Shown: positions 22,531 to 36,848 of the stretch, piece by piece | Layout: each line of letters begins with the position of its first letter | Position numbering within the stretch: the first letter of the stretch is position 1 | From: Chryseobacterium phocaeense | GTDB taxonomy: Bacteria; Bacteroidota; Bacteroidia; Flavobacteriales; Weeksellaceae | DNA: 64,000 nt | Reading direction: 5' to 3' | Assembly: GCF_900169075.1 (NCBI RefSeq) | Contig: NZ_LT827015.1 | Coordinates: 124,001 to 188,000 of the forward strand | Translations under genes and position numbers: made by a program | Notes under the pieces: model-generated | Seen by the model: the letters and a program-made list of their open reading frames with translations, nothing else | What the model was told of the DNA's origin: nothing | The model's database searches: none

Positions 22531-22674
22531 AAAGGTGGCTTCGAGTTCCTCAGCCACCTGCGATTATAGTTCTTTCCGGAATGTATTCTTTACATCAGAA
22601 AATTACATCTGTTTTAGACTGAAATCTCAAAGGCCGGAAAGGTGGCTGAGGAACTCGAAGCCACCTTTCCGGCC
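22531..22674. repeat. REP-like double hairpin
   Basis: A 28-bp arm AGGTGGCTTCGAGTTCCTCAGCCACCT-type at 22532-22558 recurs inverted at 22640-22667. Each arm is itself a hairpin; the right one is perfect over 16 bp (GGCCGGAAAGGTGGCT / complement, 22632-22674). It separates the ternary operon from the tRNA island. Confidence 0.7.
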
Positions 22675-22716: not shown

Positions 22717-22724
22717 TATCTTTG
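22717..22724 (+). promoter_or_regulatory. -7 box of leader transcript 1
   Basis: TATCTTTG matches TAnnTTTG exactly; the inferred transcript start is about 22730, 8 bases before the leader ORF. Confidence 0.65.
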
Positions 22725-22737: not shown

Positions 22738-22866
22738 ATGACACTACAAAGAGCACATATCAATGTAAATCTATGCGATAGCCCTTCAATAAAAGGATTA
22801 TTCGGATATGAATGGATGATATGGAATGAGGCGAAATGTGCTTGCTTTGAAAATTATTTACAATAA
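22738..22866 (+). CDS. Leader peptide 1, uses all 20 amino acids in 26 codons
   Basis: 42 codons from ATG 22738. Its first 26 codons include every one of the 20 amino acids at least once (last to appear is Trp26), an extreme composition with no hydrophobic core, so it looks designed to be read rather than to fold. It lies right after a clear promoter and before a terminator at 22895-22932. Codons 31-33 (GAG GCG region, 22827-22833) are complementary to the 5' arm of that terminator. I infer a ribosome-mediated attenuator that senses shortage of any tRNA. No family is recognised. Confidence 0.7.
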   Translation: MTLQRAHINVNLCDSPSIKGLFGYEWMIWNEAKCACFENYLQ

Positions 22867-22932
22867 ACCCGTAAAAATTTAAACAAAATACTGCAGAAAC
22901 GTCTCGATAACCCGGGGCGTTTCTTGTGTTTT
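22827..22932 (+). promoter_or_regulatory. Attenuator 1: competing antiterminator and terminator
   Basis: Terminator stem AGAAACGTCTCG (22895-22906) / CGGGGCGTTTCT (22913-22924), then TGTGTTTT. The alternative helix pairs TGAGGCG (22827-22833, in the leader ORF) with CGTCTCG (22900-22906), with inner TGC/GCA and TTTG/CAAA helices. Both cannot form together. Confidence 0.55.
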
Positions 22933-23151
22933 AGGCCATAAATTATTTAGAATGAAAAAAAATAACCATAAAATTGAAAATTTTTTAATTAACAATGAAC
23001 ATTTAATACGATAAATAAGAGTGATAAGTAACCCGATGAGAGACAGTCATTTAGGTATTTAAGAGATCTGCAGGATATTGCGGACAGATACTTCTTGTGT
23101 TAAAAATTGAGTTTAATTATTTGGTTTTCAATGACTTAAATGAAAAATAAA
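22933..23151. other. AT-rich gap between the two leaders, no convincing gene
   Basis: Holds only tiny frames (20 and 8 codons) and a weak stem around GATCTGCAGG...GACAGATAC (23071-23092). It may simply connect leader 1 to leader 2. Confidence 0.4.
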
Positions 23152-23183
23152 TTTGCAGGTTAAAAATTTTCATCCTTACTTTG
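23152..23183 (+). promoter_or_regulatory. Promoter of leader transcript 2 / tRNA array
   Basis: TTTG at 23152-23155, 20 bases, then TTACTTTG at 23176-23183, a slightly off-consensus -7 box identical to that of the TROVE promoter at 36783-36790. Confidence 0.55.
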
Positions 23184-23243
23184 CAACCGAAAATTGAAAG
23201 CAACAGGTTTTCAGGATTCAAAAACTTTTTAAACAAAAATATA

Positions 23244-23363
23244 ATGAAACAATTACATAACATATCTAATATGGATTCAAGACTACTCGGACAGGGGCCG
23301 AAAGGATATGCATGCAGTATTCTGGATCAGGAATTTATACATAAAAGGTGCTTATATACGTAG
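23244..23363 (+). CDS. Leader peptide 2, 18 amino-acid types in 39 codons
   Basis: 39 codons from ATG 23244 in an A-rich start context (an in-frame ATG at 23181 lies within the promoter). It uses 18 different amino acids and lacks only Val and Trp. Its first 31 codons already include His, Lys, Arg, Asp, Pro, Ile, Asn, Cys, Tyr, Glu, Leu, Phe and Gln, that is every amino acid served by the tRNA array downstream except Trp. The last codons (Arg-Cys-Leu-Tyr-Thr-stop) form the 5' arm of an antiterminator. I infer an attenuation leader peptide, not a functional protein. Confidence 0.7.
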   Translation: MKQLHNISNMDSRLLGQGPKGYACSILDQEFIHKRCLYT

Positions 23364-23425
23364 GTCTCAATGATCTGACACGTCAAAATATATACAGCAC
23401 CTCCCGAAAAGAGGTGCTTTTTTTT
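23346..23425 (+). promoter_or_regulatory. Attenuator 2 in front of the tRNA array
   Basis: Terminator: GCACCTC (23397-23403) / GAGGTGC (23411-23417) plus eight Ts, ending 3 bases before the first tRNA. Antiterminator: AGGTGCT-TATATA (23346-23358) pairs with TATATA-c-AGCACCT (23389-23402). The AGGTGC sequence occurs twice, so the GCACCT strand must choose. The 5' antiterminator arm lies in the last leader codons and would be covered by a ribosome at the stop codon. Confidence 0.75.
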
Positions 23426-23427
23426 AT

Positions 23428-23500
23428 GGTTTCTTTAGCTTATTTGGTAAAGCGCCGGTCTGTGGAACCGGAGAACAGGGTTCGATCCCCGAAGATACCC
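23428..23500 (+). tRNA. tRNA-His (GTG)
   Basis: Anticodon GTG at 23462-23464 in CCGGT-CTGTGGA-ACCGG; T arm GGG-TTCGATC-CCC; acceptor GGTTTCT/AGATACC with one T-T mismatch. Starts 3 bases after the attenuator T run. Confidence 0.8.
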
Positions 23501-23522
23501 AAAATACAAGTGGATGATGAAT

Positions 23523-23597
23523 TTTGTGAAATGTGAATGGTCAATGGTGAATGTAAAATTGACAGGCGAAGCAAATTGACAATTGACCATTCACATT
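23523..23597. repeat. GTGAATGGTCAAT-type palindromic spacer repeat
   Basis: First of several spacers that begin GTGAATGGTCAAT, contain GCTTCGCA or GCGAAGCAA, and end AATTGACCATTCAC; others lie at about 23683-23757, 24074-24153, 24254-24336, 26085-26235 and 61707-61910. Confidence 0.65.
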
Positions 23598-23604
23598 AAA
23601 AAAC

Positions 23605-23678
23605 AATCTCATAGCTCAACTGGTTAGAGCACCGGTCTTTTAAACCGGGGGTTGAAAGTTCAAATCTTTCTGGGATTA
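23605..23678 (+). tRNA. tRNA-Lys (TTT)
   Basis: Anticodon TTT at 23639-23641 in CCGGT-CTTTTAA-ACCGG; acceptor AATCTCA/TGGGATT pairs fully with one wobble. Confidence 0.88.
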
Positions 23679-23762
23679 CAATTAAGAGTGAATAGTCAAT
23701 GTTGAATTTAAAAATTAACAAAGAAGGCGGATTGACAATTGACCATTCACAAAACTAAAAAC

Positions 23763-23835
23763 GGTTCCGTAGCTCAATGGATAGAGCATGGGTTTTCTAA
23801 ACCCAGGGTTACAGGTTCGAATCCAGTCGGGATCA
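23763..23835 (+). tRNA. tRNA-Arg (TCT)
   Basis: Anticodon TCT at 23796-23798 in TGGGT-TTTCTAA-ACCCA; acceptor GGTTCCG/CGGGATC pairs with two wobbles; one T-stem mismatch. Confidence 0.85.
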
Positions 23836-23841
23836 CAAAAA

Positions 23842-23912
23842 GGTCTATTGAGGTAATGGTAACCTGCCCGACTGTCTCTTGGGCACCGCGAGTTCGATTC
23901 TCGCATAGACCG
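23842..23912 (+). tRNA. tRNA-Asp (GTC), unusual T at position 37
   Basis: Perfect acceptor GGTCTAT/ATAGACC with discriminator G, as expected for Asp. Anticodon loop CTGTCTC (23872-23878) reads GTC, but position 37 is T rather than a purine. Variable loop is short. Confidence 0.7.
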
Positions 23913-23916
23913 CAAG

Positions 23917-23974
23917 GATTCACGGAAAAATTCAGCTCCGGCTGTCTCCCGGAAACGGAATTGGAAGTGAATCT
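23917..23974 (+). tRNA. Minimal tRNA-Asp-like element without D and T arms
   Basis: Perfect 7-bp acceptor GATTCAC/GTGAATC and a 5-bp anticodon stem TCCGG/CCGGA enclosing CTGTCTC, the same loop as the preceding tRNA-Asp. Only ~58 bases; no recognisable D or T arm. A decoy or relic rather than a normal tRNA. Confidence 0.5.
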
Positions 23975-23980
23975 TAAAAA

Positions 23981-24052
23981 CTGGAAAGATAACGGTGGTT
24001 GTTTACCCGCCTTGGACGCGGGAGGCCATAGGTTCGAATCCTATTTTCCAGA
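23981..24052 (+). tRNA. tRNA-Pro (TGG)
   Basis: Perfect acceptor CTGGAAA/TTTCCAG, anticodon TGG at 24013-24015 in CCCGC-CTTGGAC-GCGGG, T arm ATAGG-TTCGAAT-CCTAT. D arm is weak. Confidence 0.8.
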
Positions 24053-24158
24053 CAAGTTTTGTTGAGGACAAAAGTGAATGATGAAAAGTGAATTTTGCTT
24101 CACAGGTGAATTTAAGATTGACAGTAAAACAGATTGACAATTGACCATTCACATAAAA

Positions 24159-24232
24159 GATTTCGTAGCTCAAGTGGTTAGAGCGTCGGTCTGATACACC
24201 GGAGGCTGAAGGTTCGAGTCCTTCCGAAATTA
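24159..24232 (+). tRNA. tRNA-Ile (GAT)
   Basis: Anticodon GAT at 24193-24195 in TCGGT-CTGATAC-ACCGG; acceptor GATTTCG/CGAAATT; normal D and T arms. Confidence 0.9.
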
Positions 24233-24341
24233 CAAAAAGATGAAAAATGAAAGAGTGAATAGTGAATTTTGCTTCGCAAGTGAATTTAAAAATTGACGGT
24301 AAAACGGATTGACAATTGACCATTTACTATTCACATCAAAA

Positions 24342-24413
24342 GATTTTGTAGCTCAATGGCAGAGCACCGGTCTGTTAAACCGGAAGTTGAAAGTTCGAGT
24401 CTTTCCAAAATCG
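24342..24413 (+). tRNA. tRNA-Asn (GTT)
   Basis: Perfect acceptor GATTTTG/CAAAATC, discriminator G, anticodon GTT at 24374-24376 in CCGGT-CTGTTAA-ACCGG. Confidence 0.9.
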
Positions 24414-24447
24414 CAAAAACTAAATGTTAATTGTTTCAAAAGAAGAG

Positions 24448-24513
24448 AAAAAAGGTATGTCAAGAGCAGAAGATCTTTACGCCAAATACGGAAAATACCG
24501 ACAGCCTTTTTCT
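24448..24513 (+). ncRNA. Array hairpin RNA, copy H1
   Basis: Closed by AAAAAGG/CCTTTTT and TGTC/GACA with the conserved inner sequence AGAGCAGAAGATCTTTA; followed by a T-rich tail. Shares its core with 24755-24828 and 25298-25371. Confidence 0.5.
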
Positions 24514-24593
24514 TTTTTATGAGAAGTTAGAAGTTAGAAGTGATTAAATGAGAGCAGTATCATTGATCAATTATCAATCATCATTTATAATTC

Positions 24594-24725
24594 GATGGTT
24601 CGCCGAAGTGGAAGAGTCGGGGCGGTCTGCAAAACCGTTGTGAAAACTGAGTGGGTTTTGAAATGCGCAGCATTCGTGAATTCAGATAAAAAATAAAAAT
24701 GTTTATGAACAATCCATAACCATCT
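24594..24725 (+). tRNA. tRNA-Cys-like element (GCA), interrupted or class II-like
   Basis: 5' acceptor strand GATGGTT and then CGCCGAAG...GAGTCGGGG as in the tRNA-Tyr of this array; anticodon GCA at 24629-24631 in CGGT-CTGCAAA-ACCG. A matching acceptor strand AACCATC appears only at 24718-24724, leaving about 80 bases where a variable and T arm should be. No normal T arm. Confidence 0.5.
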
Positions 24726-24754
24726 CAAATAACTAAAATGAGAGTTAGTTCCGG

Positions 24755-24828
24755 AGAAAAGTAAAAGTTTGTCGAGCGTAGAAGTTCTTATATCAAACTA
24801 AAAATAAAGACAGGCTTTGTTTTTCTTC
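24755..24828 (+). ncRNA. Array hairpin RNA, copy H2
   Basis: AAAGTTTGTC pairs with GACAGGCTTT over 10 bp (two G-U), extended by GAGAAAA/TTTTTCTTC; inner GAGCGTAGAAGTTCTTA matches the H1 and H3 cores. Confidence 0.5.
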
Positions 24829-24839
24829 ACAACAGAGAA

Positions 24840-24955
24840 ATTAGAGATTAGAAGTTAGAAGTGATTAAATAAGATCAGTATTATTAATCAATCATCATTT
24901 ATCACTTATCGCTTATAAAATTACTTATTGCTAATTACTCATTACTCATTATACT
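24840..24955. repeat. TAGAAGTTAGAAG / ATTACTCATTACTCAT spacer repeat
   Basis: Second spacer family of the array, built on AAGTAATGAGTAATGAG-like units; further copies at about 25379-25476, 25565-25692, 25783-25871 and 61907-61938. Confidence 0.55.
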
Positions 24956-25039
24956 GGAAGTACGCCGAAGTTGGAGAGTCGGGGCAGACTGTAAATCTGT
25001 TGCTTCACTGCTGAGCAGGTTCGAATCCTGCTACTTCCA
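24956..25039 (+). tRNA. tRNA-Tyr (GTA)
   Basis: 84 bases, class II with long variable arm; perfect acceptor GGAAGTA/TACTTCC, anticodon GTA at 24991-24993 in GCAGA-CTGTAAA-TCTGT, T arm GCAGG-TTCGAAT-CCTGC. Confidence 0.92.
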
Positions 25040-25042
25040 CAA

Positions 25043-25119
25043 AAACCGCCGATAATGTAATGGCAGCATGCAGGAAAAGTACTCTTGTTGTTCAGGTTCG
25101 ATTCCTGGTTGGTCGGTTT
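25043..25119 (+). tRNA. tRNA-Gln-like element with altered anticodon loop
   Basis: Closely resembles the tRNA-Gln at 25877 (same D arm pattern, TCTTGTTGTTCAGG and T arm), but the loop is AAAGTAC instead of CTTTGAC, so the universal T33 is lost. Acceptor pairs imperfectly (AAACCG-CC / GG-t-CGGTTT). Probably non-decoding. Confidence 0.5.
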
Positions 25120-25123
25120 ACAT

Positions 25124-25195
25124 GTTCCATTAGCATAGCGGTAAGTGCATCCGGCTTTCTACCGGACGACAAGGGTTCGATTCCCTTATGGAATA
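25124..25195 (+). tRNA. tRNA-Glu (TTC), T at position 37
   Basis: Acceptor GTTCCAT/ATGGAAT, anticodon TTC at 25157-25159 in TCCGG-CTTTCTA-CCGGA, T arm AAGGG-TTCGATT-CCCTT. Position 37 is T, as in the array tRNA-Asp. Confidence 0.85.
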
Positions 25196-25297
25196 CAAAC
25201 GTGAATGGTCAAAAATCAATGATGAATAATGAATACCATGAAAGTTCAGATTGAGGAAACACAATTGATCCGCTGATCATTCACAGAAAAACAGGAA

Positions 25298-25371
25298 AGA
25301 GAAAAGTTTGTCAGGCGCAGAAGATCTTACAGACACTAACAGGCATAGTTGTATACAGACAGGCTTTCTCT
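25298..25371 (+). ncRNA. Array hairpin RNA, copy H3
   Basis: AGAGAAA...GTTTGTC pairs with GACAGGC-TTTCTCT; inner AGGCGCAGAAGATCTTA matches H1 and H2. Confidence 0.5.
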
Positions 25372-25483
25372 GACCTTGATTGATAAGTAATGGGTAATGA
25401 GCAATAAGTAATTTGACTGATGATAAATAGTCAATGAGTGAATTAATTACTGATTACTAATCACTCATTACTCATAAAAAAAC

Positions 25484-25557
25484 GCGGGAATGGTGGAAAT
25501 GGTAGACACACCTGATTTAGGCTCAGGGTTTTGGGGGTTCGAATCCCTCTTTCCGTA
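25484..25557 (+). tRNA. tRNA-Leu (TAG) with shortened variable arm
   Basis: Anticodon TAG at 25518-25520 in CCTGA-TTTAGGC-TCAGG; T arm GGGGG-TTCGAAT-CCCTC. Only about 5 bases of variable loop, where Leu tRNAs normally have a long arm. Acceptor GCGGGAA/TTTCCGT uses two wobbles. Confidence 0.75.
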
Positions 25558-25567
25558 CACATTAATA

Positions 25568-25615
25568 TAAATGATAAGTAATAAGTAATAAGTAATAAGT
25601 AATAAGTAATAAGTA
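25568..25615. repeat. 7-bp tandem repeat AATAAGT
   Basis: About six perfect units in the spacer after tRNA-Leu. Confidence 0.8.
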
Positions 25616-25697
25616 GTCGGGATAACGGATCTCCATTGTGAAATAGTCATTAAGTGAATTAATTACTTATTACCCATTACTTATTACTCATAAACCG

Positions 25698-25773
25698 GGA
25701 AGAGTGGTGTAGCTGGTCTGCACGTTAGTCTGAAAAACTAAAGGTACAGGTTCGATTCCTGTCTGTTCCACCA
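25698..25773 (+). tRNA. tRNA-Phe (GAA) with encoded CCA
   Basis: Anticodon GAA at 25732-25734 in TTAGT-CTGAAAA-ACTAA; T arm ACAGG-TTCGATT-CCTGT; acceptor GGAAGAG/CTGTTCC with one mismatch. Discriminator A is followed by CCA, which no other array tRNA encodes. Confidence 0.82.
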
Positions 25774-25876
25774 AACATGAATAATAAGTAATGAGCAATG
25801 AATGATATGGCTCGATTGTGAAATAATAAATTGACCTCTGGATTACTCATTACCCATTACTTATTACTCATCATAT

Positions 25877-25948
25877 TGATTCATAGTGTAATTGGCAGCA
25901 CACAAGACTTTGACTCTTGTTGTTCAGGTTCGAGTCCTGATGAATCAA
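25877..25948 (+). tRNA. tRNA-Gln (TTG)
   Basis: Perfect acceptor TGATTCA/TGAATCA, anticodon TTG at 25910-25912 in CAAGA-CTTTGAC-TCTTG, normal T arm. Confidence 0.92.
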
Positions 25949-25956
25949 CAAAAATT

Positions 25957-26027
25957 ACTCTGATGGTGTAATGGCAGCATCTCAGTCTCCAAAACTGATG
26001 GTATAGGTTCGAGTCCTGTTCGGAGTG
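25957..26027 (+). tRNA. tRNA-Trp (CCA)
   Basis: Acceptor ACTCTGA/TCGGAGT (one wobble), discriminator G, anticodon CCA at 25989-25991 in TCAGT-CTCCAAA-ACTGA. Last tRNA of the array. Confidence 0.9.
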
Positions 26028-26034
26028 CAAAAAC

Positions 26035-26090
26035 GTGAATAGTGAATAGTGAATAGTGAATAGTGAATAGTGAATAGTGAATAGTGAATT
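26035..26090. repeat. 7-bp tandem repeat GTGAATA
   Basis: Seven perfect units and a partial eighth, then two copies of the palindromic spacer repeat up to the next gene. Confidence 0.85.
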
Positions 26091-26264
26091 TTGCTTCGCA
26101 AATGAATTTAAAATTGACAAGTTAAACGAATTGACCATTGACCATTCACAAAATACAATGGCAACAGTAAATTTTGCTTCGCAGATGAATTTAATATTGA
26201 CAGGTAAAACGAATTGACCATTCACCATTGACAAATAAAAATCAACCTAAAATATGTAGAAAAA

Positions 26265-26750
26265 ATGGAAACGCAACAAGAAGTATGGCAGAATATGAAA
26301 GGAAATTTTTTCCTGAAACCTATCACGCAGCTGGTAGAAGAAGCCATTATCCGCGAACAGGCTAACGGCCACCGACTGAAAGTATGTGTGGGTTCAGATT
26401 CCCACGTGTATGGCGACGCCATCAGCTATGCCACGGCCATTGTATTTGTTCGGGAAGGAAAAGGAGCGTTTACCTTTATCAGAAAAGAAAGAGAAATACA
26501 GAAAATCAGTATCAAAGAAAGAATGCTGAATGAGGTAAACAGATCCGTAGAAATTGCCTACGCTATCTGTGCCATTCTGGATGCTTATGGAGTAGAAATG
26601 GAGGTACACGCAGACATTAATACCGACCCGGATTTCAAGTCAAATGCCGCATTGAAGGATGCGATGGGCTATATCCTGGGAATGGGGTATGTGTTTAAGG
26701 CAAAACCGTATGCCTTTGCAAGCTCTAATTGTGCTGATATGATGGTGTAA
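26265..26750 (+). CDS. YkuK-type (DUF458) RNase H-fold protein
   Basis: 161 residues. CVGSDSHVYGDAISYATAIVFV holds the first acidic residue of the RNase H-like fold and EVHADINTDPDFKSN the second; KDAMGYILGMGYVFKAKPYAFASS completes the family pattern. These proteins are predicted to bind or cut structured RNA or act on its ends. It is the first protein gene after the tRNA array, on the same strand, with only spacer repeats between, so it probably belongs to the same RNA-damage island. Confidence 0.8.
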   Translation: METQQEVWQNMKGNFFLKPITQLVEEAIIREQANGHRLKVCVGSDSHVYGDAISYATAIVFVREGKGAFTFIRKEREIQKISIKERMLNEVNRSVEIAYAICAILDAYGVEMEVHADINTDPDFKSNAALKDAMGYILGMGYVFKAKPYAFASSNCADMMV

Positions 26751-26845
26751 TCTTTTAATTTAAAAAAATGAAAACAGTTTACTTATTAATGGAGAAAAGT
26801 ACTGGAAATTTCAAACTGTGAAAAAACAAATAAAAACTGATAACC

Positions 26846-27622
26846 ATGTATTTTTTAATTCAGGCCAATGTCTATTTAGATCCGGATAATTACAGAATTT
26901 TTAATGTATTGGAGGAATTAAATATTGATTATGAAGTAATTAATATTCCACCAACAGCAGAGAAAATAGACTTTAAAACAGACCGGAAGGATGTTTTTGT
27001 ATACGGTTCTGTAACGATAGCAAGACTGGCAAAACAGAATTCAGAGTGGTTTCCTGGTTCTTTTTATGGGGGTAATCATTTGTATGAAGTGTATTCCAGA
27101 TTTTATGGAGAAAATCTCCTTAATTATAAAGTTTCTGTTCATAAAATTTCAGAAGACCTTGTTTGGAAGAATAATGAAATAAAATTTATTAAGCCTTACA
27201 ACGAAGCTAAAATTTTTACAGGAAGAGTTTTCACGGAAATAGAATGGAAAGATTTCGTTTTTGAATCAATCGAAAATCAATCTAATAGAATTACGGGTGA
27301 TTCAATGGTTCAGGTTTCAGAAGCAAAATGTACCATAAAAGAAGCAAGACTTTGGATTATAGGCGGACAGATAATCGATGGAGGATACTATAAATTTAAT
27401 GATAATGCTCCTTTTGAAGAGAAGGTTTCAGAAGACGGACTTGTTTTTGCCAATGAAATGATCAAACTTTTTAATCTTGAAAAGGCTTTCGTAATGGATA
27501 TCTGCTTAACGGATGAAGGCTGGAAAATTGTAGAAATAAACTGTATTAACAGTTCCGGGTTTTATCCCAATACAAATGTGAAAAGTGTTATCAAAGCATT
27601 GAATATTTACTTTTCTAATTAA
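26846..27622 (+). CDS. R2K-clade ATP-grasp protein (formerly DUF4343)
   Basis: 258 residues. The N-terminal strand-helix part is followed by an ATP-grasp core: KIFTGRVFTEIEWKDF, VQVSEAKCTIKEARLWIIGGQIIDGGYYK, and the metal site FVMDICLTDEGWKIVEINCINSSGFY, where the D...E-N triad binds Mg-ATP. This is the pattern of the R2K clade, members of which are linked in comparative genomics to RNA repair and RNA or peptide modification. It starts an operon with the cREC and RNA ligase genes (gaps of 9 and 13 bases). The substrate joined by ATP-grasp chemistry is not known. Confidence 0.75.
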   Translation: MYFLIQANVYLDPDNYRIFNVLEELNIDYEVINIPPTAEKIDFKTDRKDVFVYGSVTIARLAKQNSEWFPGSFYGGNHLYEVYSRFYGENLLNYKVSVHKISEDLVWKNNEIKFIKPYNEAKIFTGRVFTEIEWKDFVFESIENQSNRITGDSMVQVSEAKCTIKEARLWIIGGQIIDGGYYKFNDNAPFEEKVSEDGLVFANEMIKLFNLEKAFVMDICLTDEGWKIVEINCINSSGFYPNTNVKSVIKALNIYFSN

Positions 27623-27631
27623 AAAAATAAG

Positions 27632-28003
27632 ATGGAAATAACAAAAAGATTATTGTTTCTGGATGATATAAGATACCCGGTTGAAGCGTATCATTATTCC
27701 AGACAGGATGTTTTCCTCAGAAAGGACTGGCATATTGTTCGGAATTACGATCAGTTTGTCAACAGGATTCTGGAAAAAGGACTTCCGGAAATGATTTCTT
27801 TTGACCATGATCTGGCAGATGAACATTATCTGGAACAGGATTCTCAAGAATTTGTTGAAAAAAAAGGATATGACTGTGCCAAATGGCTCGTAGAATATTG
27901 CATGGATCATTATTTAGATCTGCCAAAATTCTACTGTCACTTTATGAATCCGGTTGGAAAACAAAACATTGAAAGCCTTTTGAACAACTTTAAAAACTAT
28001 TAA
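27632..28003 (+). CDS. Cyclic-phosphate-processing receiver-like protein (cREC)
   Basis: 123 residues. KRLLFLDDIRYPVEAY at the N-terminus and EMISFDHDLADEH in the middle give the acidic DD and DHD motifs of the cREC family, a receiver-fold domain predicted to process 2',3'-cyclic phosphate ends of cut RNA. HFMNPVGKQNIESLL closes the fold. It sits between the R2K ATP-grasp and the RNA ligase, exactly the place for an end-healing step before sealing. Confidence 0.75.
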   Translation: MEITKRLLFLDDIRYPVEAYHYSRQDVFLRKDWHIVRNYDQFVNRILEKGLPEMISFDHDLADEHYLEQDSQEFVEKKGYDCAKWLVEYCMDHYLDLPKFYCHFMNPVGKQNIESLLNNFKNY

Positions 28004-28016
28004 AAATTAAAAAGAA

Positions 28017-29030
28017 ATGATTTTCAAAACATACAACACTATAGAAAACGCTTACCAGACCCGCATGATAGATCAGATCAGGCTTCAGGGTTTTGGGGAT
28101 GAGGTTTTCGTAGTGCAGGAAAAGGTTCACGGGGCAAATTTCTCTTTCTTTACCGACGGAAAGGAAATTAAGATCGGAAAAAGAACCGCTTTTATTGAAA
28201 AAGATGAAAAGTTTTTCAATGCCCATCAGGTATTGGAACGCTACAGGAAAAATGTGATGGATCTGTTCCAAACAGTTAAAAACATGCATCCTCAAACGGA
28301 AACTGTTGTGATTTACGGCGAATTATTCGGCGGAGGATACAAGCATAAGGAAGTAGAGCCCGTAAAAAATGCGGTCAAAGTGCAAAAAGGGATTGAATAT
28401 GCCCCTCATAATGAATTTTACGCTTTCGATATTAAGCTGAACGGAACCACTTATCTGGATACGGATTTGGTGAATCAGATTTTTGAGGAAACCGGTTTTT
28501 TCTATGCTAAAATAGTGTTCCAGGGCTCACTGGAAGAAGCTTTGAAGTTCCCGAATGTTTTTGATACCAAAATTCCGGGTTGGCTTGGTCTGCCTGAAAT
28601 TGAGGATAATATCTGCGAAGGAACCATTGTCAAAACTTTGAAAACCAGATATTTTGGAAACGGTTCAAGGGTCATTCTGAAAAATAAGAATGAAAAATGG
28701 ACCGAAAAATCCAAAATGGTTAAAAAATACAGACCCGTGAAGGAACAGGTCCGTTTCAGTGACACTGCCGGAAATATTTGGGAAGAAATCCAAAAATACG
28801 TTACCGCAAACAGGCTGAATAATGTAGTAAGCAAGATTGGCGAATTTCATCCCGGTATGATGGGTAAGGTGATTGGCCTTTTTGCACATGATATTCTGGA
28901 AGATTTTGGAAAGGATTTCCCTGCAGCTTTCACTTCAATAGAAAAAGAAGAACAGAAAAGGATCAATAAAAAATTGAATACTTTGGTTATTCATTGTATA
29001 AAAGAAGAGTTCATGACTCTTAAAGTCTAA
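28017..29030 (+). CDS. Rnl2/DRB0094-like ATP-dependent RNA ligase
   Basis: 337 residues. Nucleotidyltransferase motifs are complete: motif I EKVHGAN with the adenylated Lys36, motif Ia/III around VIYGELFGG (101-106), FYAFDI, motif IV EGTIVK (201-206) and motif V RVILKNKN (about 218-225). A ~110-residue helical C-terminal domain follows. It seals 3'-OH/5'-phosphate ends, probably at nicks in tRNA or rRNA. Last gene of the operon, followed by a terminator at 29029-29059. Confidence 0.9.
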   Translation: MIFKTYNTIENAYQTRMIDQIRLQGFGDEVFVVQEKVHGANFSFFTDGKEIKIGKRTAFIEKDEKFFNAHQVLERYRKNVMDLFQTVKNMHPQTETVVIYGELFGGGYKHKEVEPVKNAVKVQKGIEYAPHNEFYAFDIKLNGTTYLDTDLVNQIFEETGFFYAKIVFQGSLEEALKFPNVFDTKIPGWLGLPEIEDNICEGTIVKTLKTRYFGNGSRVILKNKNEKWTEKSKMVKKYRPVKEQVRFSDTAGNIWEEIQKYVTANRLNNVVSKIGEFHPGMMGKVIGLFAHDILEDFGKDFPAAFTSIEKEEQKRINKKLNTLVIHCIKEEFMTLKV

Positions 29031-29059
29031 GTTTCGGTATATTTTACCGGAACTTTTTT
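29029..29059 (+). terminator. Terminator of the RNA-repair operon
   Basis: AAGTTTCGGTA / TACCGGAACTT stem (one wobble) and TTTTT, overlapping the ligase stop codon. Confidence 0.8.
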
Positions 29060-29236
29060 ATGTTTAAAAACTAAGGATATAATTGTGCAGAAAACAAAAA
29101 ATCTTTTAAGACAAAATTACCTTAAACATGAACAGCACAAATATTTTCCACAAATAGGCACACTCATCTGTGAAAATCTGTGGAATCAGTGGTCAAAAAA
29201 TTGAACGAAAAAAATTAACAAACAAATTATTAAAAA

Positions 29237-29800
29237 ATGAAACCAAATATATTTTTTACGGCAGACCATCATTTCGGTCATGCCAATATTATAAAATTTT
29301 CAGAACGTCCGTTCGAATCTCTGGATCATATGAATGAAGAGCTGATCAGGAGATGGAATGAAAAGGTCGGGATCAATGATACGGTCTATCATCTTGGCGA
29401 TATCAGTTTAGGAAAACCGGATTTCACCAAAGAAATTCTGGACAGGCTGAACGGTAAAATCCATCTGATCAAAGGGAACCATGAAGGCGCTGCCCTCACA
29501 TATCCCAAAAGATTTGACTCCATACGAGATTATCATGAACTGAAAATCGATGAACCGGAAAACACCAATGGTAAACAGAAAATCATTCTTCTGCACTACG
29601 CCATGCGAAGCTGGAACGGCTCATACCGAGGGGTCTGGCAGCTCTACGGGCACTCACACGGAACATTACCGGATGATGAAATGGCTTTAAGCTTCGATGT
29701 AGGAGTAGACTGCCATAATTTTTACCCGATCTCCTACGAAGAAGTTAAAGAAATAATGAAACGCAAGAAGTGGACGCCGCCGTTTGCAGTAAGAAACTAA
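29237..29800 (+). CDS. Calcineurin-like metallophosphoesterase
   Basis: 187 residues with all five metal motifs: FTADHHFGHANI, YHLGDISLG, LIKGNHEG, LLHYAMRSW, LYGHSHG. FSERPFESLDHMNEELIRRWNEKV is typical of the small phage- and bacterial-type phosphoesterases. Such enzymes can remove 2',3'-cyclic or 3'-terminal phosphates. The position between RNA ligase and exonucleases supports an RNA end-processing role; this is inference. Confidence 0.85.
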   Translation: MKPNIFFTADHHFGHANIIKFSERPFESLDHMNEELIRRWNEKVGINDTVYHLGDISLGKPDFTKEILDRLNGKIHLIKGNHEGAALTYPKRFDSIRDYHELKIDEPENTNGKQKIILLHYAMRSWNGSYRGVWQLYGHSHGTLPDDEMALSFDVGVDCHNFYPISYEEVKEIMKRKKWTPPFAVRN

Positions 29801-29837
29801 AAATGTTTTTTCGGGAATTTTATATAATTATTTTTTC

Positions 29838-29874
29838 TGCGTAAATAGAATGCGTACTGATGATTTTACCTTTG
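29838..29874 (+). promoter_or_regulatory. Island promoter P1 with TGCGTA pair
   Basis: TGCGTA at 29838 and 29851 (13-base phase), then TACCTTTG at 29867-29874. The same arrangement occurs at 36755 and 38465. Confidence 0.65.
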
Positions 29875-29989
29875 CATAACTTTAGCAGTTACAGCAATTC
29901 TTCTTTAAGGGTAATCCTTCCCACGTCTCCTCCAAACCCATAAAACGATATGCAGATGAATGAAAAAAATGTAGAATAAAAATAATTAA

Positions 29990-30535
29990 ATGAAAACAAC
30001 CAATGAAATATTAATCATCGATTTGGAGGCCACATGCTGGGAAAATGACAGAATTCCGGCCGGACAAAAAGTCGATATTATAGAAATAGGAATTTGTAAG
30101 CTGGATTTAAAATCTAAAGCTATTTCCCAAAAACAAAGCATCTATGTAATACCGGAAAGATCAGAAATTAATGACTTCTGCACAAAACTGACCGGAATTA
30201 CTCCTGAACTGATTGAAGAAAAAGGAATCTATTTTGAGGAAGCCTGTGAAAAAATCAGGGAAGAATATCATGCAGAACGGCTTACCTGGGCCGGTTATGG
30301 GAACTTCGACAGGGAACAGGTTTTCGAGCAGTGCGACTGGCTTGGAATAGAGATCCCCTTCGGAGGAAATTATCTCAATGTGATGGAAGAGTTCAGAGAC
30401 CATTTCAGACTGCATAAATTAATAGGGCTGAAAAGAGCCCTGAACCATCTCAAGATGGATTTTGAAGGAAACCATCACAGCGGAGCAGACGATGCTTACA
30501 ATGCCGCCAGAATTTTACGGAAAATTTTGGAGTAA
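29990..30535 (+). CDS. DEDDh 3'-5' exonuclease, paralogue 1
   Basis: 181 residues. ExoI LIIDLEATCWEND (Asp, Glu), ExoII around LTWAGYGNFDREQ (Asp) and ExoIII NHHSGADDAYNAARI (His, Asp) give the complete DEDDh set of the KapD/ERI-1-like branch, which trims RNA 3' ends. It has the island-type promoter P1 and a 100-base leader with a hairpin shared with the TROVE leader. The next gene is a close paralogue. Confidence 0.88.
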   Translation: MKTTNEILIIDLEATCWENDRIPAGQKVDIIEIGICKLDLKSKAISQKQSIYVIPERSEINDFCTKLTGITPELIEEKGIYFEEACEKIREEYHAERLTWAGYGNFDREQVFEQCDWLGIEIPFGGNYLNVMEEFRDHFRLHKLIGLKRALNHLKMDFEGNHHSGADDAYNAARILRKILE

Positions 30536-30617
30536 TCAGTAACAGGGAAGTTTAAACGGAAAATAAATAAAATCTACTACTATCTTCCATCTTCCCGAAC
30601 ATTAAATTGATAAACAA

Positions 30618-31169
30618 ATGAAAACAACAGAAAATATATTAATCATAGATCTTGAAGCTACCTGTTGGAATGACAGGCCGCCAAGAGGCCAGGAAAGCGA
30701 GATCATCGAAATAGGAGTATGCATCATGAATGCCGCAACAGGTATGGTCTCAAAGAATGAAGGGATTTTAATAAAATCCTTGTACTCAAAGGTAAGCCCG
30801 TTCTGTACGGAGCTCACCTCCATCACCCAGGAAATGCTGGATAGCGAAGGCATTATGCTGGAAGATGCACTGGATATCCTTAGGGCAGAATACGACTCTG
30901 AAGATCTTACGTGGGCAAGCTACGGAAACTATGACCTGAATATGCTGCAGAATCAGGCCAGAAGATTCAATCTGGATTATCCGTTAAGCGATGACCATAT
31001 CAATGTAAAGACCTTATTTGGCCAGCTGCATCCCACAGTGAGAAAAAGTGTGGGCATGAGCAGGGCTTTAGGTGAGCTTAACCTTAAACTGGAAGGTACC
31101 CACCACAGAGGCGTGGATGATGCAAAGAATATTGCAAAAATCCTGCACTGGTGCTTAAGACAGTACTAG
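30618..31169 (+). CDS. DEDDh 3'-5' exonuclease, paralogue 2
   Basis: 183 residues, the same layout as the preceding gene: LIIDLEATCWNDRPPRGQ, LTWASYGNYDLNML, and THHRGVDDAKNIAKI. The pair arose by tandem duplication and has diverged in the middle. Two trimming enzymes of different specificity (for example 3' extensions of tRNA versus Y RNA) would fit the island. No promoter is evident in the 82-base gap, so it is probably co-transcribed with paralogue 1; a terminator lies at 31196. Confidence 0.88.
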   Translation: MKTTENILIIDLEATCWNDRPPRGQESEIIEIGVCIMNAATGMVSKNEGILIKSLYSKVSPFCTELTSITQEMLDSEGIMLEDALDILRAEYDSEDLTWASYGNYDLNMLQNQARRFNLDYPLSDDHINVKTLFGQLHPTVRKSVGMSRALGELNLKLEGTHHRGVDDAKNIAKILHWCLRQY

Positions 31170-31195
31170 TATAAAAATATAACAGTCTACCAATG

Positions 31196-31222
31196 ACTCC
31201 CTTCTCAGAAAGGGAGTTTTTT
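31196..31222 (+). terminator. Terminator after the exonuclease pair
   Basis: ACTCCCTT / AAGGGAGT stem followed by six Ts. Confidence 0.85.
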
Positions 31223-31269
31223 ATTGATATAGCAGAAAAAATAATCTTAACTTTCATTAAAAATAGCAG

Positions 31270-31345
31270 CAGATCTTTGAATTTTTTTGCGCCTTAAAGC
31301 AGTATGAAAATAAATCTTTTGCGTCTTTGCAATACACCAAAAAAT
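31270..31345. repeat. GCGCCTTAAA...GCGTCTTTGC repeat, copy 1
   Basis: Closely related to 53527-53602: both read TTGCGCCTTAAA, then a spacer, then TTGCGTCTTTGC and an A-rich end. It sits upstream of genes, so it may double as a promoter. The rest of 31223-31523 shows nothing else. Confidence 0.45.
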
Positions 31346-31523
31346 AAAAAATAGATACCAACGCTTTTTTCTGTGACAGCAAAAATTTCTTTTAACTTTT
31401 ATTCAGAAATCCGGGCTGAACTGCTTCAGAAAGCATAATTTTTTGTTAAAAAACTCACTTTAAAGGGATAATTCAATTTCGACATTTATTTTTTTGCTAT
31501 TTTAGTCGTTCAACAGTGGAATT

Positions 31524-31865
31524 ATGCTTAGTGAAGATGAATTGAAGAGGATTTATTTAAATGATAAAATCAAAGAAATAATTCTTTTTTTTAGAAAGCT
31601 GACCCCAAAAGAAATACAAAAAACTTCCGTCATTGTCAAGAAATTTTTAAATAATGACTGGAGGCATAATCACGGCTCTGAGCTTACCCTTTCGGTTTCC
31701 GGTCAGACCCATGAGCAATACGGAAAACTGGCTCCGGGCTTTTACATATTGCCTCTCAGTTTTCTTAGCAAACTGTTAAAATCCTTAAACAACTTTTTGA
31801 GATATATAATGAACTGTCACATCTTAATCAGTCACAAACTGATCAGGCTGTTGCAGGGAGACTAA
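31524..31865 (+). pseudogene. Truncated DUF6493-like gene remnant
   Basis: 113 codons. The first ~42 residues (ELKRIYLNDKIKEIILFFRKL, TPKEIQKTSVIVKKFL) align with the start of the next gene (ERLYEILNEEKAHEIIPFLKQL, SHEERKALIPTIKKL). After about residue 60 the sequence no longer resembles that family and looks like out-of-frame translation. A decayed duplicate, or a short stand-alone version, directly before the full-length copy. Confidence 0.5.
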
Positions 31866-31920
31866 AAGCATGACAAAAAACGAAAATAACCTGAAAAAAA
31901 TTATTATCAAATTAAAACAA

Positions 31921-34617
31921 ATGAAAGAAAGACTTTATGAGATCCTTAATGAGGAAAAAGCACATGAAATCATCCCCTTTCTGAAACAGCTCAGCCATGA
32001 AGAAAGGAAAGCCCTGATACCTACAATAAAAAAACTGGACAGGGAGATCAGTAAGATCATAATGACGAAAAACTCCTATCATACTGCCGGCTCTGCTGAT
32101 CAGCATTCTATTATTGATATCGCATCATTTGTCTGTATGGATCAGAAGCATTACGGGAAAGATTACTGGAGCTTTTTCAGAGACAAAGAGCAGACCTCTA
32201 AAATACTGGAATGGGGATGTCCACCCTGGTTTTCAGATTTTATTAATGATTCTGTTGAAGCCGAATTTACTGCATTTAACTATCAGGATATTCTTGGATG
32301 GGCCGAAAAAGGCTACGTACAGCCCAGACCTGAGTTGCTTGGCTATCACTTAAGCCTTCAGCCCCATGAACTGGAAAAAAATCCGGAGACCCTTGAAACC
32401 CATTTTTGGTACATGTGTGAATTTCCGTCGAAATCCCTTCCGTTTCAAAGAGAATGGTTTCCGGTGGTTCAGAAACTGATTGCTGAAAATAAAATTGAAA
32501 GAAAAAGATTTCTAAAGGAATGTCTGCTCGCAGCTAACAGAAATTTTAATAAAAATGTAACCGGATGGTTTATGGATGCATTCAATGCATTGAAGCCTTC
32601 TGATGACGAGCTGATTTTGCTTCAGGATGAGCTGATGGCAGGACTGGCCTCTGTTCAGTCAAAAGCAGTAAATACCATGCTGGCCCATCTGAAAAAAATA
32701 GTTGCAGATCCGGAATTCAGAACGGGTGAGTTCTCTCACTTTCTTCCGAATTTATTAAGCTCCGAAGTGAAAACCGTAGTGGCAGCCAGTCTTACCGTTA
32801 CAGAAAGAATTTTCCAGAAAAGAAAAAAAGACACTGATAATCTCGGATTGGCATTAAGCGCTGCATTTGTAAGCAAAGATGAAAGTATTCAGACCAAAGC
32901 GGCAAAAGTTATTTTGAAATATGTTCCCGTTTCTGAAGAAATCAAGGAAGCTTTGTCCCATTATGCCGACAATATATTGGCAAATGTAAGACCCGGACTG
33001 GTTCAGTATATTGAGAACAGACCGTTGGAATTGGACGCTGTAGAGCCGGAAAAGCTGGAACTGATCAGTGAGGAAAGCCGTATTCAGAAGCCTGAAAGCT
33101 TTGAAGACCTGATGTTTTTCCTTCCGCAGGCCATAGAAAATCCCGGGACCTGGTACTATGATCTGGCACTGGATGGATTGATCCGTTTTGCAAATGAGGC
33201 AGATGAAGGATCTGTAAAACTTTTCGAACCCGTATTTCAAAAAGCATGTAAAACCGTTGCGAAATGGGAAGTTCATCATTTTAATGTGCTTCTGTGTAAT
33301 CTGATCATCAATTACGGACTTTTGTTGTTGGATAAATTTCCGGTTCAGCTTAAGAATCTGGAGAAAATCTACAAAAGAACCTGCGAAGATGAAGCCACCA
33401 GAGAAGTGTATTCCAGTTACCATAAGAAGCTGGGGCCTCTTAAAGATATTTATGCAGGAGGTTTGGCTATGGAACCCTTTAAACGTATTGCGGTACTTGT
33501 TTTTGAAAAAATCACTTTGGGAGATCAGACGCCGCTTCTCTCTACCGTAACCCATGAACCGTGCTGGGTAAGCCCGGAAGCATTGGTAGAAAGGCTGGAA
33601 ATTTACCAGAATACTGATACGGAACCCAAAGATCTTGATATGCAGCTTGCCCTTCAGCGTTGTTCACTGGAAAAAACATCAGACGCTTTGCAGCAGGTTG
33701 AGGAAAAATTAAAAGGTGAATACAAAGACCTGCTTCTTTTCTTTTTTAATAAAAATCCCGCCCCGAAAGGGAAATTTGAACATCCTTCGTGGTGGATGAC
33801 GGCCGGAATTACATGCTCGCCGGGGAAAGTTTTTGAAGAATTTAAGGACTTTGGCTATGATGATATTCCTGAAGAATTTCTTTCCGGAATTTATGACTGG
33901 AAAACCATCGACAGCAAAAAAAATTCCTACTATCCCGTTGAACTCAATATCAGTGTTCCGAAATATCATCTGAAAAAAAGGCAGCATCCCCTTTTCCTTG
34001 AATACTTTATTGCAGAACAAAAACACTTTGCTGAGATTCCTTCCTTTATGTGGAGCTTTCCCAATACCCTTGGGAATGTTTTTGCAAAGATCGTCAAATA
34101 CTGTCTGTTCTATTCAGGGCTTGCTGAGGTTTATGAAAGAAACCTGGTTCTGAGTACCGCGCAGGCATTGCACCAGATGAAAAAACCTCTGGATGCAATG
34201 GGATTACTGTTTTTGGGAACGGTCTTTCTAGATGGAGACAAAGTGATCCGGGGAACTGCCGCTGAAATCTGGCTGGAACATGTATCTCATAAAGTAATGG
34301 ATAATGCTGAGCTCGGCAGAGTAATAGGTCTTCATGAAAAACTTGAATGGGCGCCTATAAAACGCTTTACGGATATTGTACAGCACCAGATGCTTAATGT
34401 CAGCAAAGACCATAACCTGGCCCTCGAACAGCTGCTGGCCCATATTCTTCTACAGATGGAAACCCCGGTGACCAATCTGAAAAAAATATTGGATATTTAC
34501 CACGAGGTTTTAGCCTTAAATCAATCTGAGGCCGATAAAAACTTAAAAGAAAAACTGAATACCTGGAAAGAAAACTCCAGTCTGAAAAAAATCTGCAATC
34601 TTCTTCTAAAAAAATAG
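31921..34617 (+). CDS. DUF6493 family HEAT-like repeat protein
   Basis: About 898 residues from ATG 31921, chosen because its N-terminus matches the remnant upstream and the context is A-rich; an ATG at 31870 adds 17 residues. All-helical, with ARM/HEAT-like repeats such as DEPIQTKAAKVILKYV-like units and AVNTMLAHLKKIVAD. DUF6493 proteins recur beside SWIM-finger proteins and often MoxR/vWA genes. The repeats suggest a large scaffold. Three bases separate it from the SWIM gene, so they are co-translated. Confidence 0.75.
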   Translation: MKERLYEILNEEKAHEIIPFLKQLSHEERKALIPTIKKLDREISKIIMTKNSYHTAGSADQHSIIDIASFVCMDQKHYGKDYWSFFRDKEQTSKILEWGCPPWFSDFINDSVEAEFTAFNYQDILGWAEKGYVQPRPELLGYHLSLQPHELEKNPETLETHFWYMCEFPSKSLPFQREWFPVVQKLIAENKIERKRFLKECLLAANRNFNKNVTGWFMDAFNALKPSDDELILLQDELMAGLASVQSKAVNTMLAHLKKIVADPEFRTGEFSHFLPNLLSSEVKTVVAASLTVTERIFQKRKKDTDNLGLALSAAFVSKDESIQTKAAKVILKYVPVSEEIKEALSHYADNILANVRPGLVQYIENRPLELDAVEPEKLELISEESRIQKPESFEDLMFFLPQAIENPGTWYYDLALDGLIRFANEADEGSVKLFEPVFQKACKTVAKWEVHHFNVLLCNLIINYGLLLLDKFPVQLKNLEKIYKRTCEDEATREVYSSYHKKLGPLKDIYAGGLAMEPFKRIAVLVFEKITLGDQTPLLSTVTHEPCWVSPEALVERLEIYQNTDTEPKDLDMQLALQRCSLEKTSDALQQVEEKLKGEYKDLLLFFFNKNPAPKGKFEHPSWWMTAGITCSPGKVFEEFKDFGYDDIPEEFLSGIYDWKTIDSKKNSYYPVELNISVPKYHLKKRQHPLFLEYFIAEQKHFAEIPSFMWSFPNTLGNVFAKIVKYCLFYSGLAEVYERNLVLSTAQALHQMKKPLDAMGLLFLGTVFLDGDKVIRGTAAEIWLEHVSHKVMDNAELGRVIGLHEKLEWAPIKRFTDIVQHQMLNVSKDHNLALEQLLAHILLQMETPVTNLKKILDIYHEVLALNQSEADKNLKEKLNTWKENSSLKKICNLLLKK

Positions 34618-34620
34618 AAT

Positions 34621-35964: not shown

Positions 35965-35967
35965 GTC

Positions 35968-36003
35968 AAAAGGACAGCTTGTAATACCAGGCTGTCCTTT
36001 TTA
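35968..36003. terminator. Terminator between convergent genes
   Basis: AAAGGACAGC / GCTGTCCTTT with T run, serving the SWIM gene and possibly the VOC gene on the other strand. Confidence 0.8.
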
Positions 36004-36450
36004 TTATTGCTGCTCTATCCATTCTTCATACGTAATCACGCCCAGTTCCGGCCTGCCTTCACCTTCGAGAATAGAAATAAATTCAAGCTGGTTACCGTCC
36101 GGATCGTTGAAATAAATGGCCAGTGCAGGCATCCAGGCAAAAACCATAGGCTGGTCCATACCGTCTTTCAGGAAATTGTAAGGCTTCAGGTCTTTATTTT
36201 TGAGAAAATCAACGGAATAATTTAAAATATCTTCTGTACTGCTTGAAAACGCAAAATGCCTTGGCTGCAGGTTTTCTTTCTGTTCCCACAATCCAAGCAT
36301 AAATTCTTTTTCATCCCCGATCCATAAAAATACGATAGGGCGGGTCTCATCCCTGTGAGCCAGTTTCAAACCTAATATTTCAGTATAAAACTTTACAGAA
36401 TTTTCCAGATCGCTCACCTGAATATGGGTTTCATATAATCCCTTGATCAT
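36004..36450 (-). CDS. VOC-family protein
   Basis: Start set at ATG 36450 (IKGLYETHIQVSDLENSVKFYTEILGLKLAHRDE); an upstream ATG at 36471 adds seven residues. 148 residues. Metal-ligand pattern is complete: His near residue 8, Glu of EFMLGLW, His of PRHFAF and Glu of NQLEFISIL. The DPDGNQLEF signature places it with lactoylglutathione lyase / fosfomycin-resistance-like enzymes; substrate unknown. It is the only minus-strand gene inside the island and may be an unrelated insertion. Confidence 0.85.
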   Translation of the reverse strand: MIKGLYETHIQVSDLENSVKFYTEILGLKLAHRDETRPIVFLWIGDEKEFMLGLWEQKENLQPRHFAFSSSTEDILNYSVDFLKNKDLKPYNFLKDGMDQPMVFAWMPALAIYFNDPDGNQLEFISILEGEGRPELGVITYEEWIEQQ

Positions 36451-36553
36451 AACCTCAGTTTTAATGTACACAAAGCTATACCATGCCTGTTTAAAAAGAG
36501 AAGATCTTTGATTTCTTTAGTGAAAATGAATGATAGGGAGAGTTTATTGGATT

Positions 36554-36617: not shown

Positions 36618-36638
36618 AAGCATCTAAAATTCAATAGG

Positions 36639-36790: not shown

Positions 36791-36848
36791 CATCAGAAAT
36801 CAGGAGGTATGATAATCCTCTACCACGTTTAACAAAAAACAGTAACTC

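Follow-up and report, generated by a model that had tools for sequence, protein, structure and literature searches.

The window, by which we mean the whole stretch of DNA analysed here, comprises 64,000 nucleotides and is part of the 4.86-Mb genome of Chryseobacterium phocaeense. It contains two short open reading frames, called here leader 1 and leader 2, each with a terminator behind it, followed by an array of tRNA genes and by genes for an RNase H-like protein, R2K ATP-grasp and cREC proteins, and an RNA ligase (Table 1). The tRNAs called in the array, with tRNA-His from 23428, serve 13 amino acids (His, Lys, Arg, Asp, Pro, Ile, Asn, Tyr, Glu, Leu, Phe, Gln and Trp). The genes upstream of this region in the window are bpX4, bpMoxR, bpX2, bpX0/bpX1, bpX3 and that of a TPR-like (SNAP) protein. 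The elements P1 and P2, one ahead of each leader, are presumably promoters, judged by the Bacteroidota promoter consensus.

Table 1. Features of the locus; positions are counted from the first letter of the window.
Feature	Position	Strand	Basis or remark
P1, -7-like element TATCTTTG (TAnnTTTG) for leader 1	22717..22724	+	conservation
Leader 1 ORF, 42 codons, all 20 amino acids, MTLQRAHINVNLCDSPSIKGLFGYEWMIWNEAKCACFENYLQ	22738..22866	+	profile match
Strand A1, GAGGCG (Glu-Ala codons) in leader 1	22828..22833	+	complementary to 5' arm of terminator 1
Terminator 1	22895..22924	+	conserved across loci
P2: TTTG 23152-23155, TTACTTTG 23176-23183	23152..23183	+	conserved, 139 distinct upstream regions
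Leader 2 ORF	23244..23363	+	39 codons, 18 amino-acid types (no V, no W)
Strand A, antiterminator 5' arm, AGGTGCT TATATA	23346..23358	+	codon contrast at Arg/Cys
Strand B, TATATACAGCACCT, common to antiterminator and terminator	23389..23402	+	predicted pairing with A
Terminator 2 and T run	23396..23425	+	stem 23396-23418; eight T 23418-23425
tRNA array, 13 called tRNAs	23428..26028	+	ARAGORN, Rfam
RNase H-like protein (PF04308)	26265..26750	+	same strand, downstream of leader in 149/155 loci
R2K ATP-grasp and cREC proteins	26846..28003	+	in 54 and 126 of 155 loci, respectively
T4 Rnl2-type RNA ligase	28017..29030	+	Pfam; TIGR02307 above cut-off; 96/155 loci
Terminator-like hairpin after ligase	29029..29055	+	probable unit end

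Homologues of leader 2 were found in 140 of the 148 genomes of the genus at E<=0.01, with the 39-residue leader of the window as query; among the 148 searched, three genomes (G021, G039 and G134) gave chance-level matches only and five more gave none. We retrieved 138 of 139 leader-bearing relatives (G057, whose match score equals that of G046, was omitted), which together with the window make 139 loci; a family search added 16, eight of them from genus g9, bringing the collection to 155. A pattern for both arms and the terminator is present in 153 of these 155 loci, a recurrence beyond what chance would give. Two loci, L104 and L163, in which the T run is interrupted and the arms are visible by eye, were excluded from the energy counts. 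Among named records, the best 80 of 111 matches to the attenuator pattern come from Chryseobacterium or Epilithonimonas, apart from one labelled 'Flavobacteriaceae bacterium'. Judged by this comparison, the attenuator in the window is one copy of a genus-wide conserved element.

From the start of arm A to arm B there are 51-55 bases in 136 of the 137 loci of the first set and 58 in the remaining one. An intrinsic terminator separates leader 2 from the first tRNA in 137 of 139 loci by pattern and in the other two by eye, and the first called tRNA follows the end of the T run after two bases in 111 of 137 loci. At least one array tRNA was called by ARAGORN in all 137 loci of the first set. The first is tRNA-His in 119 of the 137 and a tRNA for Ile, Arg, Asp or Lys in the others; the attenuator therefore serves the array and not tRNA-His. 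A preliminary description of this locus had given strands A and B the positions listed in Table 1, which are correct on direct reading, as are its end of leader 2 at 23363 and its count of 39 codons and 18 amino-acid types. It had also set a terminator at 23397-23417, followed by eight Ts and, three bases further on, by tRNA-His; the terminator stands and the spacing is corrected to two bases.

Leader 2 is an ATG open reading frame in all 139 copies read, and its frame up to arm A is kept in 150 of 153 loci, with length changes that are mostly codon-sized. Its middle is variable and its last codons are nearly fixed, synonymous positions included. Many relatives end in KRCLYTWVS, the leader of the window being a shortened form with an earlier stop. 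No Pfam or NCBIfam family matched the peptide. All 20 amino acids are present in 50 of 139 copies, at least 19 in 96 and at least 18 in 129. In 41-residue segments of 28 proteins from the window the full set is reached in 0.02% of cases and in random draws in 0.24%, the corresponding values for at least 19 amino acids being 2.6% and 3.1%. Against shuffled columns of the 125 distinct leaders, too, the full set is over-represented (33.6% against 22.7%; highest of 2000 shuffles, 32.8%) and the mean number of amino acids is raised (18.93 against 18.74; sd 0.05; highest of 2000, 18.91); the share of these leaders with at least 19 (67.2% against 63.1%; highest 73.6%) is unexceptional. Phe is missing from 0.8% of leaders where 13.3% would be expected, a value as low as this occurring in none of 1000 shuffles. 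Leaders without Ala, His or Glu are likewise rarer than column shuffling predicts, and those without Val or Thr are commoner than expected under column independence.

The codons at which a stalled ribosome would leave arm A free, 30 in most leaders, hold 17.3 amino acids on average, compared with 14.7-15.0 in segments of 32-34 residues. Trp is absent from these codons in 129 of 137 loci and Thr in 93 of 137, and the arrays often have both tRNAs. The preliminary description had counted 13 of 14 array amino acids in the leader. In the window the leader holds 12 of the 13 called, without Trp, and the higher count would require a Cys-like stretch near 24600 that neither ARAGORN nor Rfam calls there. 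Over the 137 arrays, the amino-acid types of the array are found in leader 2 in 1453 of 1481 cases, and the array anticodons have a readable leader codon in 1432 of 1499 cases, as against 1342 expected from synonymous redraws; the Leu(tag) anticodon does worse than the redraws (77 against 89.7 expected).

Co-variation between leader and array was assessed in 110 arrays with at least eight amino-acid types, on the codons where a stall frees A. Raw Fisher tests gave p values of 6e-9 for Asp, 7e-5 for Arg, 0.001 for His and 0.025 for Thr; the associations of Asp and Arg disappear (p 1 for both) when the count is extended as far as arm A. A tree of the neighbouring RNase H-like gene alone (105 rows) yields just two independent supported pairs for Asp, five for Arg and one for Pro, none of these associations being significant. 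Phe at its main position as opposed to Phe elsewhere shows seven changes and three supported pairs in the same test, again without significance. Leader-array co-variation was rejected: for Asp, Arg and Pro it is not significant once relatedness is controlled, with too few independent pairs.

The codon usage at the end of leader 2 indicates that arm A is constrained as RNA. Arg37 is AGG in 137 of 137 aligned leaders, and Cys38 is TGC in 132 of 137, the other Cys of the same leader being TGT in 130 of 133. When the leader ends of 150 loci are redrawn synonymously, the A:B hairpin becomes weaker, its mean energy going from -18.8 to -11.2 kcal/mol, and only 4.4% of the redraws are as good. Both alternative helices, whose absence from homologues the preliminary description had named as a refutation, are kept among the homologues. 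In an alignment of 104 of 131 distinct sequences, 97.2% of the 1240 A:B cells hold standard pairs, a share that drops to 21-66% if the helix is shifted by 1-3 columns, and the terminator has them in 99.6% of 832 cells; the inner stem of the antiterminator, with 80.7% of cells paired, is no better than shuffles (104 of 500). The covariation that the preliminary description had proposed to look for in homologues was present in the terminator and slight in A:B. In the terminator, 23 cells are doubly changed, a number matched by 0 of 500 shuffles; they all belong to one pair and may correspond to few evolutionary events, the sequences being related. For A:B there is one doubly changed pair, which 128 of 500 shuffles equal (the score is equalled by 19 of 500), little covariation being expected there because A hardly varies. 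Through the exchange of GCACC and GCGCC the AGGTG of arm A is retained by means of a G-U pair, as the Cys codon would require.

The predicted energies describe two structures whose order depends on the position of the ribosome. As long as the 3' arm of the terminator does not exist, the predicted probability that A pairs with B is above 0.8 in 153 of 153 loci. With A free, the A:B hairpin is predicted to be stronger than the terminator in all 153 (means of -18.8 and -14.1 kcal/mol). A ribosome on the stop codon was modelled on the assumption that it covers 15 nt on each side. Where the stop lies 15 nt from A (22 loci, including the window), the ribosome reaches over the whole of arm A and A:B drops to about -0.2; where it lies 24 nt away (121 of 153 loci), the reach is partial and A:B drops to about -8.2 kcal/mol. 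With the ribosome so placed, A:B is predicted to be weaker than the terminator in 153 of 153 loci, and the order of energies thus flips in the way put forward in the preliminary description. In the 24-nt form, AGGTG[C/T] would still pair with B (P 0.98) under the stop-codon ribosome until strand C is made. In the window, A:B is present in the predicted fold of the segment 23340-23425, whose stability is matched by 1 of 200 shuffles (z = -3.2). Over the whole leader, 23244-23425, the stability is ordinary (z = -1.1; matched by 28 of 200), and the minimum-energy fold contains the terminator and not A:B. At equilibrium, moreover, A:B is favoured over the whole RNA from A to the T run in just 32 of 153 loci, even with A free. 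The switch must therefore be kinetic. Co-transcriptional attenuators generally are.

Leader 1, about 500 bases upstream of leader 2 and unrelated to it, was found in 155 of 155 loci with a profile built from 48 of them, and starts with ATG in 154. It contains all 20 amino acids in 87 of the 155 loci and at least 19 in 150; jointly, the two leaders lack none of the 20 in 150 of 153 loci and one in the remaining three. A search of 395 genomes of the order outside the genera g1 and g9 yielded just three weak matches to leader 1, with E near 0.005. One genome of the genus, G066, is without leader 2 and carries leader 1 (E 5e-17). Codon choice in strand A1 departs from that in the rest of the leader. 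Its Glu is GAG in 140 of 145 loci, the other Glu codons of leader 1 being GAA (97/97; 71/74), and its Ala is GCG in 127 of 140, the other Ala codons being GCA (142/142) and GCT (142/146). The RNAalifold consensus of the region includes the pairing GAGGC:GCCUC. Over 142 loci, A1:B1 averages -17.1 when free and terminator 1 averages -15.4, and a ribosome at the stop codon brings A1:B1 to -10.4; the mean energies are thus ordered as for leader 2. That leader 1 duplicates the leader 2 switch exactly was nevertheless rejected: the stop lies 36 nt beyond A1, and a ribosome placed there leaves A1:B1 formed (P 0.98).

In the 200 nt upstream of leader 1, P1 is almost the sole well conserved stretch (147 distinct sequences). 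Terminator 1 and P2 are separated by a conserved block (22949-23120) that contains short ORFs (MKKNNHKIENFLINNEHLIR; MRDSHLGI), and around ATCTGC a small hairpin is predicted. Leader 1-like proteins are present in many public records (P0005, P0009, P0016 and others) under the label 'penicillin-binding protein', which looks like a wrong, apparently propagated name for a 42-residue peptide.

The Rfam tRNA model has 74 matches in the genome of the window. We compared the array tRNAs with 20 stretches that hold many, not all, of the other tRNAs of this genome, in which 11 of the 13 have a counterpart for the same amino acid. The seven-base anticodon loop differs from that of the counterpart in nine of these 11 and is identical for Lys and Asn. 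In pairs of equal length, 49 of 75 positions are identical for Ile and 46 of 73 for Glu; the remaining array tRNAs differ in length from their counterparts and are divergent by eye. The array tRNA-Leu(tag) at 25484-25558 has 75 bases, about ten fewer than the housekeeping tRNA-Leu; the longer form is expected for a tRNA-Leu, given its long variable arm. This divergence fits replacement tRNAs that escape anticodon nucleases, of the kind put forward for phages (PMC10264068). tRNAs for Ala, Val and Gly were called in none of the 137 arrays.

Two further tRNA-like stretches in the array, both uncalled by ARAGORN, were seen by eye: the 5' part at 24598-24660 is Cys-like, many relatives having a called tRNA-Cys at this place, and 25045-25118 looks degenerate. 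The spacers between the tRNAs (23500-26260) contain similar AT-rich repeats by eye (GTGAATAGTGAA..., TAATAAGTAA...), which may help the array to gain and lose tRNAs.

Downstream of the array, the unit probably reaches through the RNA-repair genes up to the hairpin at 29029-29055, with two weaker same-strand terminator matches, at 27107 and 27768, lying between the attenuator and this hairpin. The counts of downstream genes in Table 1 refer to the span retrieved around each locus. Three loci of genus g9 bear on what the attenuator serves. L204 and L206 are without a tRNA called by ARAGORN, and L207, a short contig, has a single one; their leaders retain 20, 19 and 19 amino acids, respectively. 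Near-complete leaders thus persist where the array is lost or almost lost, so that what the leader contains is not simply matched to the array beside it. About 400 bases past the leader start, these three loci have a metallophosphoesterase-like ORF that is 78-80% identical to the window's protein at 29237. The attenuator may serve repair genes too.

The MoxR-vWA-bpX operon was rejected as the core of the system, bpX2 being absent from leader-bearing genomes such as G031 and G029 and likewise from G155, G183, G221 and G236 of genus g9. At bpX2 loci from another family of the order (L332-L335) ARAGORN called no tRNA, except three in L334, and at L336, which has bpX2 and is without the leader, it called none. 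Given this mismatch between bpX2 and leader across genomes, bpX is a neighbour and not a required part. In PMC7159879, on MoxR-vWA systems, the term 'tRNA' occurs in the reference list only. Between the bpX operon and leader 1 there is an inverted repeat (AGGTGGCTTCGAGTTCCTCAGCCACCT and its complement) at 22533-22559 and 22638-22668.

All features of an attenuator that can be tested on sequence are present at this locus, namely the leader ORF, the terminator, the alternative helix and leader codons that match the array. We give a probability of roughly 0.8 to reading the locus as a ribosome-mediated transcription attenuator with a leader peptide that samples almost all amino acids. The preliminary description had already read it as ribosome-mediated attenuation, which the architecture in 153 of 155 loci, the retention of the helices and the energy order now support; it had missed the near-20-amino-acid leaders, the shortened form in the window, the second leader with its promoter-like element and terminator, and the probable continuation into RNA-repair genes. 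The reading is grounded in the elements and their conservation, the constraint on arm A as RNA, the completeness of the leaders, the predicted energy order and the altered anticodon loops of most of the array tRNAs that could be compared.

We infer that the leader is translated, that the regulation has the direction described here and that the repair genes are co-transcribed. With all charged tRNAs present, the ribosome would reach the stop codon beside strand A, which would then hold B badly or not at all, so that B would pair with C and transcription would terminate before the array. If a tRNA for one of the first ~30 codons were missing (cut, uncharged or starved), or if the leader were left untranslated, A would be free, A:B would form first and RNA polymerase would continue into the array and probably into the RNA-repair genes. 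The divergent tRNAs of the array would then replace the lost ones. On our best reading, the switch senses that charged tRNA is scarce or that translation is blocked in any way; the natural signal is probably anticodon nucleases or other tRNA damage. We lean towards seeing in the two unrelated tandem leaders, which jointly contain the 20 amino acids, a roll-call sensor, such that a decoding failure in any codon family would open the whole tRNA and RNA-repair set.

No Rfam T-box match was obtained in 22800-41500 at E<=0.5, and a T-box or other known riboswitch was rejected on the lack of an Rfam match. RtcB is absent among 20 proteins scanned and the ligase of the unit is of the Rnl2 type, which places the unit outside the RtcR-type operons. 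A tentative alternative, which we hold to be rather unlikely, is a general translation-stress attenuator of the armZ/PA5471.1 kind, answering to any slowing of the ribosome, as by antibiotics or damaged ribosomes, with leader completeness as a by-product or as a means to broaden the response. Two unrelated leaders near 20 of 20 and the rarity of Phe-less leaders would be unexpected if the content were irrelevant. Nevertheless, read-through is the predicted default without translation, if folding is kinetic; the leader is near-complete where the array is lost; the number of distinct residues is only weakly correlated with array size (Spearman 0.18, p 0.04); and, according to the excerpts of PMC13041342, armZ has this same polarity and responds to defective tRNA maturation.

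We think it unlikely that the main regulation comes from a protein that recognises the conserved DNA ahead of P2, the attenuator setting only the basal level. The long conserved block between terminator 1 and P2 would suit such a protein, and in Anabaena a silent trn operon of 26 tRNA genes is under the repressor TrcR, according to the excerpts of PMC10272220, yet this explanation leaves leader completeness and the constraint on the arm unaccounted for. Finally, that leader 2 is translated into a functional microprotein, with an ordinary terminator and an incidental duplication of AGGTGC, seems very improbable: the conserved ATG and frame would agree with it, as would third codon positions that differ somewhat more than first and second ones (0.39 against 0.31 and 0.30) in the larger group of near-identical pairs and not in the smaller, but the middle of the peptide varies where its last codons are nearly fixed even synonymously, A:B is predicted in 153 of 153 loci, and the peptide is without a match in the two family databases.

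Ribosome-mediated attenuation, as we propose it for this locus, has well-known relatives. The attenuators of trp, his and similar operons have a leader ORF, alternative antiterminator and terminator structures and the position of the ribosome as signal, as here. Leaders of the trp and his type contain repeats of one codon, or of a few, that correspond to the operon product, and known attenuators mostly sense one or a few amino acids or one drug class. In contrast, the leader described here has nearly all 20 amino acids, each once or a few times.

A closer likeness is the leader PA5471.1 of armZ (PA5471) in Pseudomonas aeruginosa, for which the excerpts of PMC13041342 describe termination upon full translation and read-through with a stalled ribosome; PA5471.1 senses translation faults, including a defect in CCA addition to tRNAs. 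It differs in that its output is an efflux anti-repressor and that Gln3 and Phe4 are implicated in the response to the tRNA defect, and those excerpts mention neither a near-complete amino-acid set nor a tRNA array. The trn operon of Anabaena sp. PCC 7120 is likewise a large tRNA array that is normally silent and is induced by translation inhibitors, as described in the excerpted parts of PMC10272220, but it is controlled by the transcriptional repressor TrcR, and 'leader' and 'attenuat' are absent from the main text. The Salmonella operon rsr-yrlBA-rtcBA is a further relative, in which RNA-repair genes go together with a Ro60-like protein and Y RNA and are induced by tRNA damage; there, tRNA fragments are sensed through the CARF domain of RtcR and the ligase is RtcB (PMC7790460, in excerpt), whereas in Chryseobacterium the ligase is of the Rnl2 type and the proposed sensor is an RNA attenuator. 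Some phage tRNAs that anticodon nucleases do not cut are similar as extra tRNAs with altered loops, proposed to replace cleaved ones; they are phage-borne and come with no mention of leader control in the excerpts of PMC10264068, unlike the bacterial arrays considered here, which are found in most of a genus. The nearest known parallels are thus armZ/PA5471.1 for polarity and response to translation faults and, for a tRNA array that is silent until stress induces it, the repressor-controlled trn operon of Anabaena.

Among the open-licence literature matches listed, we found no description of a tRNA array or operon under a leader-peptide attenuator. The novelty of this locus lies in its sensing logic, which covers almost the entire amino-acid set and does so twice, together with the output of replacement tRNAs and probably RNA repair. 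The switch appears to query the whole set of charged tRNAs and to answer with tRNAs and probably RNA repair. If this is true, it would give bacterial tRNA arrays a direct and testable regulatory logic and tie attack by anticodon nucleases to a transcriptional answer without a protein sensor. The attenuator would also be a ready reporter for tRNA depletion.

Further downstream in the window, at 36849-38366, there is a gene for a Ro60-like protein (TROVE and vWA domains), followed at 39655-40423 by two Y RNA-like matches below the Rfam cut-off. The region 36849-40423 looks like a Ro60/Y RNA pair.
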